Source: Halomonas sp. (lineage in GTDB: Bacteria; Pseudomonadota; Gammaproteobacteria; Pseudomonadales; Oleiphilaceae). From it: a stretch of 11,295 bases of DNA. The stretch lies in NCBI GenBank assembly GCA_007135745.1, contig SLIH01000291.1, positions 1-11,295 of the forward strand. Direction: 5' to 3'. Below, in pieces: positions 136 through 4,543 of this stretch. Below the pieces are notes generated by a model. It was given only the letters and a program-made list of their open reading frames with translations. It did no database searches and had not been told where the DNA came from. The position numbers were made by a program, and so were the translations under genes. Each line of letters opens with the position of its first letter. Position 1 is the stretch's first letter.

Positions 136-1143
136 ATGAAGGCGTTTTTTCACCCCGACCAGAACCTGCACCACCCCAAGAGCTATTTTACCCGGGGGCA
201 GATGCGTGAACCCCAGGAAATCCCTGAGCGCACAACCAGAATCATCCAGGGGCTCAAGAATCTGGATATCCCGGTGGAAAAACCCGCGGACCATGGCATG
301 CGACCCATCGCGAACACCCACAACCTGGGTTATCTGAGGTTTCTTGAATCGGCGCACCGACGCTGGCCGGCAGACTGGGGTGAGGAGGTGCTGTCCAATA
401 TTTTCGTACAGCACCCGAACGCCCAGAAGGGAATTCTTGCCGAAGCAGGCCGGTATCTGGCCGACGGCAGCAGCCCCATAGGCGAGCACACCTGGAAGGC
501 CGCCTACGCCTCAGCCCAGAGCGCCATCGCCGCGGCTCAGGCACTGATTGACGGGGAGCGGTACGCTTACGGCCTGTCCCGACCACCCGGCCACCACGCA
601 ACCACCTCCTCGGCCGGCGGATTCTGTTTTCTGAACAACGCGGCCATCGCCGCCAATGTCCTGAAGCCACATTTCCCCCGTGTGGCCGTGCTCGACCCGG
701 ATGTGCACCACGGCCAGGGTGTTCAGCAGGTTTTCTATGACCGGGACGATGTTCTTTATATATCGATCCACGGCGACCCGACCAATTTCTACCCGGTAGC
801 CAGCGGTTATGAAGAAGAGCGTGGCGAGGGCATGGGTCTTGGCTACAACATCAACCTGCCCATGCCACAGGGCTCCCCCGAGGAGACCTTCTTCGAGAAA
901 CTTGACGAGGCCATGCGCGCCATTCACCTGTTCAGTGCCGATGTTCTGGTAATCGCACTGGGCTTCGATCTCTACAAAGACGATCCACAGGCCCAGGTCG
1001 CGGTGACCACCGAGGGATTCAGACGCCTGGGCAGCCTATTGCGCGGGAGCAACCTGCCCATTGCCGTTATTCAGGAAGGCGGCTATCACCTTGAGAGCCT
1101 GACCCAGAACACGGAAGCCTTCTTTTCAGGCCTGCTCGAATAG
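136..1143 (+). CDS. class II histone deacetylase / acetylpolyamine amidohydrolase family protein
   Basis: A Zn-dependent deacetylase of the arginase/deacetylase fold, 335 aa, close to the roughly 340 aa of bacterial acetylpolyamine amidohydrolases. The family hydrolyses N-acetyl groups from acetylated lysine, polyamines or small amides; the substrate here cannot be read from sequence. The catalytic site is complete: RPPGHH (149-154) with the paired histidines, Zn ligands D189 and H191 in DVHHG, the third ligand D278 in GFD, and the transition-state tyrosine Y317 in EGGY. Two positions in the metal loop differ from the commonest family wording: it reads LDPDVHHGQG, with Pro188 and Gln194 instead of the frequent hydrophobic/aromatic residue and Asn. 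No signal peptide is seen, so it is cytoplasmic. GGGA (125-128) lies 7 nt before the ATG. It is probably monocistronic and converges on the response regulator. AcuC-like acetoin utilisation is less likely, because no acu genes are nearby. Confidence 0.9.
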   Translation: MKAFFHPDQNLHHPKSYFTRGQMREPQEIPERTTRIIQGLKNLDIPVEKPADHGMRPIANTHNLGYLRFLESAHRRWPADWGEEVLSNIFVQHPNAQKGILAEAGRYLADGSSPIGEHTWKAAYASAQSAIAAAQALIDGERYAYGLSRPPGHHATTSSAGGFCFLNNAAIAANVLKPHFPRVAVLDPDVHHGQGVQQVFYDRDDVLYISIHGDPTNFYPVASGYEEERGEGMGLGYNINLPMPQGSPEETFFEKLDEAMRAIHLFSADVLVIALGFDLYKDDPQAQVAVTTEGFRRLGSLLRGSNLPIAVIQEGGYHLESLTQNTEAFFSGLLE

Positions 1144-2172: not shown

Positions 2173-2194
2173 CTTGTAAGCAATCTCTTACAAG
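2173..2194. promoter_or_regulatory. GacA-type upstream activating sequence (UAS)
   Basis: A perfect 22-bp palindrome with a 6-nt centre, CTTGTAAG-N6-CTTACAAG, contains the exact consensus TGTAAG-N6-CTTACA (2175-2192). That consensus is the known GacA/UvrY binding element upstream of rsmX, rsmY and rsmZ in pseudomonads. The centre is about 180 bp before the deduced sRNA start, similar to the spacing described for Pseudomonas rsmZ. The AT-rich stretch 2249-2300 between this box and the core promoter could accommodate a bending protein such as IHF, but no clear IHF consensus was found. The 9-bp sequence TGTAGGAGA occurs on both sides of the box (2152-2160 and 2197-2205). Confidence 0.85.
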
Positions 2195-2362: not shown

Positions 2363-2617
2363 GTCAGCGGATGACAGGGCAAGGACGCTACAGGGACGGT
2401 ATCCTCAAAGGATATTGAGGGGAAGCAGGGAATAAAAGGAAGTAACGCTTAAGGGAAACCCAATGCGAATACCGGCTCGGATGCCGGTTACCAGGGACTG
2501 GTAAAAGGGAAACTACGTAAGGGATTACGTGAAGGCGGGCAGGGAACGCCCCACCTTTCCGGGTGAAACAGTGTGTTTGCCAGTAGCTGGGGAATGACGC
2601 ATGTCATTCCCTTTTTT
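2363..2617 (+). ncRNA. CsrB/RsmZ-family sRNA sequestering CsrA/RsmA
   Basis: A regulatory RNA of about 255 nt expected to titrate the translational repressor CsrA/RsmA. It contains 14 GGA triplets, at 2369, 2383, 2394, 2410, 2421, 2429, 2438, 2454, 2479, 2495, 2508, 2522, 2543 and 2591; the last lies in the terminator stem. Several sit in loops of perfect hairpins: CCTCAA/TTGAGG around AGGATA (2403-2420), ACCGGC/GCCGGT around TCGGAT (2471-2488), TACCAG/CTGGTA around GGA (2489-2503), ACGTAA/TTACGT around GGGA (2515-2530), and GGGC/GCCC around AGGGAAC (2537-2551). Others (AGGGAA, AAGGAA) fall in single-stranded linkers. This alternation of loop and linker GGA motifs, the GacA box upstream and the Rho-independent end are the diagnostic traits of the family. 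Its length is nearer to CsrB than to the roughly 120-nt Pseudomonas RsmZ. No open frame with a ribosome site lies within it. Confidence 0.88.
2590..2617 (+). terminator. intrinsic terminator of the sRNA
   Basis: A perfect 9-bp stem, GGGAATGAC (2590-2598) with GTCATTCCC (2603-2611), and a GCAT loop are followed at once by six T (2612-2617). On the opposite strand no T-run follows the stem, so it serves the sRNA rather than the convergent methyltransferase gene, whose stop codon (2616-2618) overlaps the T-run. Confidence 0.9.
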
Positions 2618-3263
2618 ATTGCGCTGCATAAATGCGCACTCTGTTGAATTCCTCGAACTCATGCAGATCCGGCCAGGTGCGCGCCTCTCGCGCCTCAAGT
2701 CGCCGATAATGCTCATTTCCAAGTGTCTTCAGGCGCGAATCCGCCATCAGGACTCTGTCGGCCATGCCGCGAAAGCGTTCCAGCATCGGAAGGTTTTCCG
2801 GATCATAGAGAACATCGGCAGCCAGAAGCAGATCAATACCAGAGCAAGCCGCCGCATCCAGGGCGGTCGCCAGGCGCACGCCATTCTCACTGGCGTTGAC
2901 GCGCGCGGCGATCAGCGCATCCGGATCCAGATCCGCGGCAATCACCTCCTTCGCCCCCGCCATGGCGGCAGCAATCGCCACGACACCGGAGCCCGCTCCG
3001 AAATCAAGCACCCGCCGCCCCTCAACCACTTCCGGATGATCCAGAATCCACTGCGCCAGGACCTGGCCGCTCGCCCAGCAGAAGGACCAGTAGGCGGGCT
3101 CACCCACAACCGCCTGGGCCTCATGGTGCGACAGTGGGCCATTGAGACATTGCGGATCAAACAACCACAGGGCAATTTCGGGACACCCCCGTGGCCGGGT
3201 CAGCGCCACTCGAGCTCTCGGAAGGGTCCGCTGCAATGCCTGATTGAGTTCGTATTCCTGCAT
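2616..3263 (-). CDS. class I SAM methyltransferase, ETF-beta lysine methyltransferase-like
   Basis: 215 aa, single-domain Rossmann methyltransferase. SAM-binding motif I is VLDFGAGSG (85-93), the acidic residue after strand 2 is D111 in DLDP, and the post-motif segment ADVLYD (149-154) matches the D-x-x-Y pattern of protein lysine methyltransferases of the METTL20/ETFBKMT group. The segment before motif I (PAYWSFCWASGQVLAQWIL, 56-74) also resembles that group, whose known bacterial and mitochondrial members trimethylate the beta subunit of electron-transfer flavoprotein. The ETF substrate is therefore an inference, and no etf gene lies in the window. Its 3' end meets the sRNA terminator. The ATG at 3263 has no strong ribosome site. 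A perfect TATAAT box (3300-3305, minus) lies upstream. Confidence 0.82.
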   Translation of the reverse strand: MQEYELNQALQRTLPRARVALTRPRGCPEIALWLFDPQCLNGPLSHHEAQAVVGEPAYWSFCWASGQVLAQWILDHPEVVEGRRVLDFGAGSGVVAIAAAMAGAKEVIAADLDPDALIAARVNASENGVRLATALDAAACSGIDLLLAADVLYDPENLPMLERFRGMADRVLMADSRLKTLGNEHYRRLEAREARTWPDLHEFEEFNRVRIYAAQ

Positions 3264-3427: not shown

Positions 3428-4543
3428 TTGAGCCCTTCTTTTCCGGAAACGGACCGTTATCGCGAACTTTTTCTTGCCGATACCCCCATGCTGGACGTGC
3501 GGGCCCCTGTTGAATTTGAACAGGGCGCCTTTCCCCGGGCCCGCAATGTTCCCCTGATGAATGATATAGAACGTCATAAGACGGGAATCTGCTATCAGCA
3601 GCTGGGGCAGGAGGCCGCCATTGCGCTGGGACATCAACTGGTCAATGGCGACATCAAGGCTGCGAGAGTCGAGCGCTGGGTCGCCTTCGCCAAAGCCCAC
3701 CCCGAAGGCTGCCTGTACTGTTTCCGAGGCGGGCTACGCTCGCGCATTGCACAGCAGTGGCTGCAAGAAGCCGGCATCACCTACCCCCGAGTGACCGGGG
3801 GATACAAAAGCATGCGCCGGTTTTTGCTGGAACAGCTGGAAGAAGGCGCCGAATCTCTTGCACTGATCGTGCTCAGCGGGCGCACCGGCACCGGAAAAAC
3901 GCGTCTGCTCGAGCAATTACCCAATCCAATCGATCTGGAGGGGCTGGCGCGCCACCGCGGTTCCAGCTTCGGACGGCTGTTGACGGAACAGCCCAGCCAG
4001 ATTGACTTCGAGAACGCTCTCGCAGTGCACATGATGAAAGCGAACCAGACGCCAGAAAGATCCGTTTTCGTAGAAGATGAAGGTCGACTGATCGGACGTT
4101 GCGCCCTCCCCGTATGTCTCCGGGATCGTATGCAAAAGGCACCCCTTATGGTGCTTGAGCAGCCACTGGAAACGAGGGTGGAGATTATTCTGGAAGACTA
4201 TGTCACCGGGATGACCGCTGCCTTTCAGGCTCGCGACGGAGATGAACCCGGCTTCGCTGCCTTTCGGGAATACCTGCTGGGCGCACTGAGGCGCATCCGC
4301 AAACGCCTGGGCGGGTTGCGTCATCAACAGCTGGAGGCGCTCATGAACGCGGCACTGGATGCACAACATCATGACGGGGATCTCGACGGACATCGGGAAT
4401 GGATTCGAACCCTGCTGAGAGACTATTACGACCCGATGTATGACTATCAGTTGCAGCAGAAGGAGGGTCGCGTCATTCACCGGGGCAGCTTCGAGGAACT
4501 GCTGGATTGGTCCCACCGAAGTGAAAAACTGAATATTGCGTAA
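3428..4543 (+). CDS. mnmH: tRNA 2-selenouridine synthase (MnmH/SelU/YbbB)
   Basis: Replaces sulphur by selenium in 2-thiouridine at the wobble position of Lys, Glu and Gln tRNAs, through a geranylated intermediate, using selenophosphate. 371 aa, close to the E. coli length of about 364. The N-terminal rhodanese domain (about 1-135) carries the catalytic cysteine C98 in CFRGGLRS. The second domain begins with a Walker A loop, GRTGTGKT (151-158), followed by the family signature LEGLARHRGSSFG (170-182). The start is TTG at 3428: GGAGG (3418-3422) stands 5 nt before it, and the next in-frame ATG (residue 21) would cut into the rhodanese domain. The mscS-like gene follows after 27 bases, suggesting co-transcription. 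The partner selD, often next to this gene, is not in the window. Confidence 0.95.
   Translation: MSPSFPETDRYRELFLADTPMLDVRAPVEFEQGAFPRARNVPLMNDIERHKTGICYQQLGQEAAIALGHQLVNGDIKAARVERWVAFAKAHPEGCLYCFRGGLRSRIAQQWLQEAGITYPRVTGGYKSMRRFLLEQLEEGAESLALIVLSGRTGTGKTRLLEQLPNPIDLEGLARHRGSSFGRLLTEQPSQIDFENALAVHMMKANQTPERSVFVEDEGRLIGRCALPVCLRDRMQKAPLMVLEQPLETRVEIILEDYVTGMTAAFQARDGDEPGFAAFREYLLGALRRIRKRLGGLRHQQLEALMNAALDAQHHDGDLDGHREWIRTLLRDYYDPMYDYQLQQKEGRVIHRGSFEELLDWSHRSEKLNIA

Follow-up and report, generated by a model that had tools for sequence, protein, structure and literature searches.

Positions 2363–2617 (+ strand) of the window, the 11,295-nt stretch of Halomonas sp. DNA analysed here, very probably constitute the gene of a CsrB/RsmZ-type regulatory RNA of about 255 nt, which would be transcribed as a separate molecule and bind CsrA. 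In the Csr/Rsm system, GacS/BarA phosphorylates GacA, GacA drives expression of the RNA, and the GGA sites of the RNA titrate CsrA dimers off their target mRNAs. The evidence consists of the anatomy of the stretch, its conservation together with a GacA box, covariation in the stems of its 5′ half, and the presence of CsrA and GacA genes in sister genomes. Judged from sequence, we call the RNA a new clade-specific family (Marinobacter/Halospina group) of the known CsrB/RsmZ class, because its Rfam matches lie below threshold, no description from Marinobacter was found in the papers searched, and lineage-specific sequences are normal in this class.

Anatomy of the locus

The RNA lies in an intergenic stretch flanked by genes for a receiver-domain response regulator (1188–2036, − strand) and a methyltransferase with PrmA similarity (2616–3263, −). 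A histone-deacetylase-domain protein is encoded at 136–1143 (+) and MnmH at 3428–4543 (+), followed by genes for an MscS-type channel, a UbiH/UbiF-type hydroxylase, a HIT-domain protein, a YciA-like thioesterase, a PEP-CTERM protein and a Usp-domain protein. No reading frame of at least 60 codons occurs on the + strand of 2363–2600, and an antisense frame of 65 codons spans 2525–2722 (−). The window is contig C204 of its assembly (G000), which comprises 2.56 Mb in 482 contigs and is 68% complete.

The first-pass annotation had counted 14 GGA motifs in the 255 nt, placed at least five of them in hairpin loops and described a perfect terminator, and all three descriptions hold. Our recount of 2363–2617 again gave 14 GGA, compared with a mean of 8.8 in dinucleotide shuffles (14 or more in 18 of 2000) and 7.7 in mononucleotide shuffles (12 of 2000). 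Outside 2300–2680, the + strand contains at most 12 GGA per 255 nt, and the − strand maximum is 10.

When folded separately, six short hairpins on the + strand present GGA in the loop (in square brackets), G-U pairs being included among the stems of the first five: GUCA[GCGGA]UGAC at the 5′ end (2363–2375), UCCUCAA[AGGAUA]UUGAGGG (2402–2421), ACCGGC[UCGGAU]GCCGGU (2471–2488), UUACCAG[GGA]CUGGUAA (2488–2504, sharing base 2488 with the preceding hairpin), UACGUAA[GGGA]UUACGUG (2514–2531) and GGGC[AGGGAAC]GCCC (2537–2551), the last of which is weak, folding alone no better than its own shuffles (z −0.65). Conservation in relatives delineates two further elements, a module AAGC-(two GGA)-GCUU (2423–2450, +) and the AAGGGA that directly follows it (2451–2456, +). 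The stretch closes with a predicted intrinsic terminator (2589–2617, +; fold z −6.5), made of a perfect 10-bp stem (2589–2612) with a GCAU loop and a T-run; both ends of the RNA are predicted.

The global minimum-free-energy fold of 2363–2617 (−89.2 kcal/mol, z −3.35) places four GGA wholly inside hairpin loops, where shuffles average 0.95 and 5 of 300 have four or more, and leaves seven wholly unpaired, compared with 2.2 in shuffles. E. coli csrB, used as a control with the same treatment, gave nine GGA in hairpin loops versus 1.8 in shuffles. Many GGA motifs with several in hairpin loops, a defining property of the class, are present in 2363–2617.

Occurrence in relatives

A DNA search of 58 genomes returned matches in 18, including the window's own, all within the window's family. 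At 16 of the 17 other loci the methyltransferase and/or MnmH gene lies within the fetched stretch (the exception being L011). A larger set was fetched with a 12-sequence methyltransferase alignment, which found 249 relatives, of which 80 were kept as named loci. These were searched with R1, a covariance model that covers the first 126 nt of the RNA and was built on 12 training sequences with a hand-set structure.

R1 matches 70 of the 80 named loci with E-values of 6.1e-16 or better, less than 2 kb from the methyltransferase gene; seven of these 70 are training genomes, and the 12 training sequences match by construction. The ten loci without such a match are L038, L067, L074, L087, L092, L097, L098 and L100–L102, and for L038 (Tamilnaduibacter) the genome (G005) carries the RNA just beyond the fetched stretch. 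Within the window's family, a search under strict filters found R1 matches in 150 of 163 genomes and none in 13; when the set is limited to completeness of 90% or more and contamination of 5% or less, the figure is 133 of 142. Misses fall in genera g3 and g4 and in six genomes of g12. Across the order, again under strict filters, R1 matched 23 of 391 genomes, 21 in the window's family and two, both weak, outside it.

In the 70 relatives and the window, the RNA has a predicted length of 195–511 nt (median 232), contains 12–31 GGA (median 15) and ends in a predicted terminator. The relatives average 4.1 GGA in hairpin loops compared with 0.84 in shuffles (20 each), and 70 of 70 exceed their own shuffle mean.

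Several loci depart from the common layout. An enlarged version of about 625 nt is found in L018 (1496–2121; G010:C7), where the hairpin/GAAGC..GCTT module occurs four times at intervals of 122–125 nt, with four GGAAGCA and four AGCTT and with divergence between copies; R1 yields four matches in this genome. Long versions also occur in L081 (− strand from 3768; 511 nt, 31 GGA) and L014 (from 1496; more than 260 nt). Tandem Repeats Finder detected no array in L018 or L081. A GTTCCGA element lies just 5′ of the terminator in L003, L007, L009, L011, L012, L013 and L016, and is absent from L002, L004 and the 3′ end of the window RNA.

Putative upstream control region

The palindrome TGTAAGCAATCTCTTACA at 2175–2192 (+) is a predicted GacA/UvrY-binding upstream activating sequence, with no mismatch to the consensus TGTAAGN6CTTACA. 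A search allowing up to two mismatches would be expected to find 0.21 sites, and at least one site appeared in 37 of 200 shuffles. The palindrome starts 188 nt before 2363 and is followed, 4 bp downstream, by a TGTAGGAGA half-site (2197–2205, +). In the E. coli record its first base is at −191 relative to the annotated end of csrB, and the gap to TGTAGGAGA is 5 bp; the published account centres the csrB palindrome at −183/−182 with TGTAGGAGA 5 bp downstream (PMC4682653). By its sequence, the window has the GacA/UvrY-binding palindrome expected upstream of such an RNA, in a csrB-like position.

This arrangement is shared by the relatives. In 70 upstream regions (the window and 69 relatives, L066 being left out for its short upstream DNA), the GacA box was taken as the best match from −260 to −120; it has 0–3 mismatches in 69 of 70 and lies at −185 to −191 in 69 of 70, a different region failing in each case. 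Among 1235 control stretches, nine have a match with up to three mismatches and none with up to two. TGTAGGA, with at most two mismatches, follows the box in 50 of the 70 regions versus 327 of 5000 controls, and its best offset is 4 bp in 66 of 70.

Nearer the RNA, a promoter-like site search found one site, against 0.7 expected in shuffles, consisting of a weak −35-like CGGACA (2329–2334, +) and a −10-like TATGAT (2351–2356, +). The −10-like box and the predicted terminator are kept in relatives, in which TATAGT is the commonest hexamer at the −10 place (38 of 70).

A second GacA box with 0–1 mismatch is found in the window's own genome (L163; G000:C4:1638–1655, read on the − strand) and in four genomes of the same genus (L166 and L169 on −, L174 and L165 on +). 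A GGA-rich stretch starts about 79 nt past the first base of this box; it contains what by eye are GGA-loop-like hairpins and leads into a frame that, also by eye, looks ComEA-like (helix-hairpin-helix). The stretch may be another Gac/Csr RNA or else a leader rich in GGA. Separately, the − strand of L170 (G003:C3:206064–206081) carries a GacA box with one mismatch, downstream of which are GGA hairpins resembling CTCAACGGATGAG and GCACGGATGC.

Conservation and covariation

The first-pass annotation had proposed testing whether the GGA hairpins are conserved alongside the flanking genes and whether their stems covary in related genomes. The R1 matches beside the methyltransferase gene bear out the former, and the latter finds support in alignment A5 (MAFFT), composed of the window and 61 of the 70 matching loci (n = 62). 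A5 omits L023, L044, L045, L046, L048 and L094, which are close to kept sequences, and the divergent L081, L085 and L096. Sequence ends were taken from the R1 matches, and the structure was partly chosen after viewing the alignment, the third helix being set on the L095 row. Covariation was counted in the 5′ half only, because the 3′ half (after 2488) is not reliably alignable across genera.

In A5, 89.0% of cells are paired. Both sides have changed in 7 of 19 pairs (shuffled mean 3.9), amounting to 26 doubly changed cells compared with 10.2 in shuffles, a value reached by none of 500 shuffles; for further pair types, 72 of 500 shuffles attained the observed count. Sliding the structure by 1–3 columns reduces pairing to 25–60% of cells; at −3 the covariation score is equal (0.150 vs. 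0.148), with 60% of cells paired. Because related rows count repeatedly, the covariation is support for the structure and not proof.

The individual elements differ in how they are maintained. The 5′ hairpin (2363–2375) has 87.9% of cells paired in relatives and no compensatory change. The hairpin at 2402–2421 shows both-side changes in three of four counted pairs, with stem variants CCUC/GAGG, CUUC/GAAG and CCCC/GGGG. The UCGGAU-loop hairpin (2471–2488) has 99.2% of cells paired, both-side changes in three of six pairs, and its GGA kept in 62 of 62 sequences. The pairing register of the module at 2423–2450 differs in Marinobacter, with an AU/GC exchange.

Conservation is higher in the GGA columns (mean identity 0.86) than elsewhere (0.60), and six of the nine GGA of the 5′ half are kept in 61–62 of the 62 sequences. 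Those at 2429 and 2438 occur in all 62 and that at 2454 in 61; the GGA at 2394, 2410 and 2421 are kept in place in only 8–15.

A near-invariant part of the RNA bears on what it might do besides binding CsrA. Within the GCUUnAnGGA element, none of the 62 sequences departs from GCUU, from the A two positions later or from the GG after it, which exceeds the apparent need of a sponge acting through its loops only. Such constancy could mark the seed of a GacA-controlled sRNA that also base-pairs with mRNAs, CsrA binding being an added function. The element can, however, pair with the upstream AAGC and itself carries a GGA, and presentation of a CsrA site explains its conservation too; we consider a base-pairing role very unlikely.

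CsrA also acts on mRNA leaders that bear GGA, and by eye a GGA-rich stretch between a GacA box and a ComEA-like frame seems present elsewhere in the genus, so that 2363–2617 might be read as a 5′ leader rich in GGA, or as a riboregulator, that belongs to one of the adjacent genes instead of a free-standing sponge RNA. The arrangement of the window makes this very improbable: the downstream gene (2616–3263) is encoded on the other strand, and the stretch is closed by a strong stem that resembles a terminator. The upstream receiver gene is divergent and was found at just 4 of 17 relative loci, once as a 42-residue fragment at the edge of the locus, while the box and the RNA stay together. Least credible of all, at a probability we regard as negligible, is a chance purine-rich spacer ending in a terminator for the convergent methyltransferase gene, for although the palindromic terminator stem could serve both strands and a purine bias inflates the number of GGA (8.8 on average in shuffles), the GGA loops, 5′ boundary, −10 place and fixed-spacing GacA box are conserved over about 70 loci and the stems contain compensatory changes.

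Putative partners CsrA and GacA

A free-standing sponge RNA would act with CsrA and GacA. Of 11 chosen genomes, 10 gave a CsrA (PF02599) match and likewise 10 a UvrY relative with 52–58% identity; in both cases the 10 include four genomes of the same genus. The CsrA copy of G004 is presumably close to E. coli CsrA. In G003 the UvrY relative adjoins uvrC and pgsA, as in E. coli.

The window's own assembly, at 68% completeness, gave no CsrA (PF02599) match and no UvrY match at 1e-30. It also gave no uvrC, for which the positive comparison, G003, scored 680 bits, and this absence was taken as a sign of missing assembly. One distal gene of the G003 gacA neighbourhood is present in the own assembly. 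It lies within a contig of 13.6 kb, and no pgsA, uvrC or gacA occurs in the 1.5 kb read to its left and right, so that an assembly gap is not proven as the reason for the missing gacA. The csrA neighbourhood of G003 is represented in the own assembly by a single match that runs up to the end of a contig, plus short scattered pieces. A 724-aa frame near the Halospina csrA had no match there in a search that lacked a positive control, and this result carries no weight here.

Proposed function

We infer that the RNA is transcribed, depends on GacA and binds CsrA, as well as the stoichiometry of that binding. GacA (UvrY) activated by GacS/BarA would bind the palindrome at 2175–2192 and turn on the promoter with the −10 box at 2351–2356. 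Transcription would start at about 2363 and stop at the intrinsic terminator (2589–2617). The RNA would display GGA in hairpin loops and purine-rich linkers, could bind several CsrA (RsmA) dimers in this way, and by sequestering them would relieve CsrA control of mRNA targets.

More speculatively, the core module (the AGGA hairpin, then AAGC..two GGA..GCUUnAnGGA) may be a unit of defined CsrA loading that has been copied in some lineages, with four copies in the ~625-nt RNA of L018, and the second GacA-box-led GGA-rich stretch before the comEA-like gene may add sponge capacity in the genus; we hold this proposal doubtful.

Bacteria of the genus Marinobacter and related halophiles are widespread in the sea and live in association with hydrocarbons and biofilms. 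Naming a likely CsrA-antagonist RNA makes the Gac/Csr switch testable in them, and R1 provides a covariance model for a family below Rfam thresholds.

Comparison with known systems

The first-pass annotation had suspected that automated annotation would miss the RNA, and indeed no family of Rfam release 15 attains its gathering threshold, either in the window or in the 20 named loci (of 80) that were scanned. Its CsrB/RsmZ-type reading gains, at the level of sequence, from the conservation in relatives and from the perfect GacA box at csrB-like spacing, a box that it had not cited. A permissive scan of the window gave RF00166 (PrrB_RsmZ) as the best match, at 18.2 bits (E 0.062) versus a gathering score of 44 bits. 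The corresponding scan of the window and 17 relatives (E ≤ 0.5) listed only RF00018 (CsrB) in L014, at 23.9 bits, and did not list the window's RF00166 match. Permissive matches to JA04, P31 and sR3 were far below thresholds and were dropped.

RF00018 has no match in the window at its gathering score of 71 bits and is unlisted to E 10, in a listing that would not show a match overlapping another of its clan. It has none at E ≤ 0.001 in the own genome or the four same-genus genomes, and none over cut-off in 38 genomes, E. coli being matched as a control. RF00166 was likewise over cut-off in 0 of 38 genomes, in a search without a Pseudomonas positive control. Subthreshold CsrB matches of 30–55 bits, possibly further Csr RNAs, were seen in L149/L152 (G017:C302:8148–8347), away from the R1 match, and in L151/L154 (G043:C77), from another family of the order.

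Kulkarni 2006 reportedly predicted CsrA-regulating RNAs. Within the literature searched, parts of which were available, we found no description of a Marinobacter Csr RNA, though that study may hold an earlier prediction; the word "Marinobacter" is absent from the main text of PMC2375449 and PMC5568370.

Among known marine RNAs, the Pf1 sRNA of Pseudoalteromonas is described as having little sequence similarity to E. coli CsrB, as carrying a GacA box and AGGA/UGGA/AGGGA loops, and as acting on CsrA-controlled glycogen in E. coli (PMC9927453). Aln1a–c are presented as lineage-specific CsrB-type RNAs of the marine Alteromonas (PMC5864184). Going by these descriptions, the window RNA resembles both as a candidate lineage-specific marine CsrB-type RNA. 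Pf1 and Aln1a–c have, by the same accounts, been shown to be expressed or active, a difference from the window RNA, whose expression is predicted. Since Pf1 and Aln1a–c are also lineage-specific, such sequence appears normal for the CsrB class.

The Pseudomonas RsmZ/PrrB RNAs are GacA-box-led, GGA-loop RNAs with a terminator. The window RNA is predicted from its sequence to have the same three features, and RF00166 is its best subthreshold Rfam match, but it is nearly twice the length of that model (133 positions). E. coli CsrB (RF00018) likewise has GGA-loop hairpins and a UvrY palindrome (at −191 vs. −188 in the window) followed by TGTAGGAGA; both RNAs start with GTC and have GACAGGG near the 5′ end. 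They differ in size, CsrB being annotated at 369 nt with 22 GGA and the window RNA predicted at 255 nt with 14, and in gene neighbours. The clade has the csrB promoter layout of E. coli, a palindrome near −180 followed by TGTAGGAGA, whereas divergence has taken the RNA body out of reach of the Rfam models.
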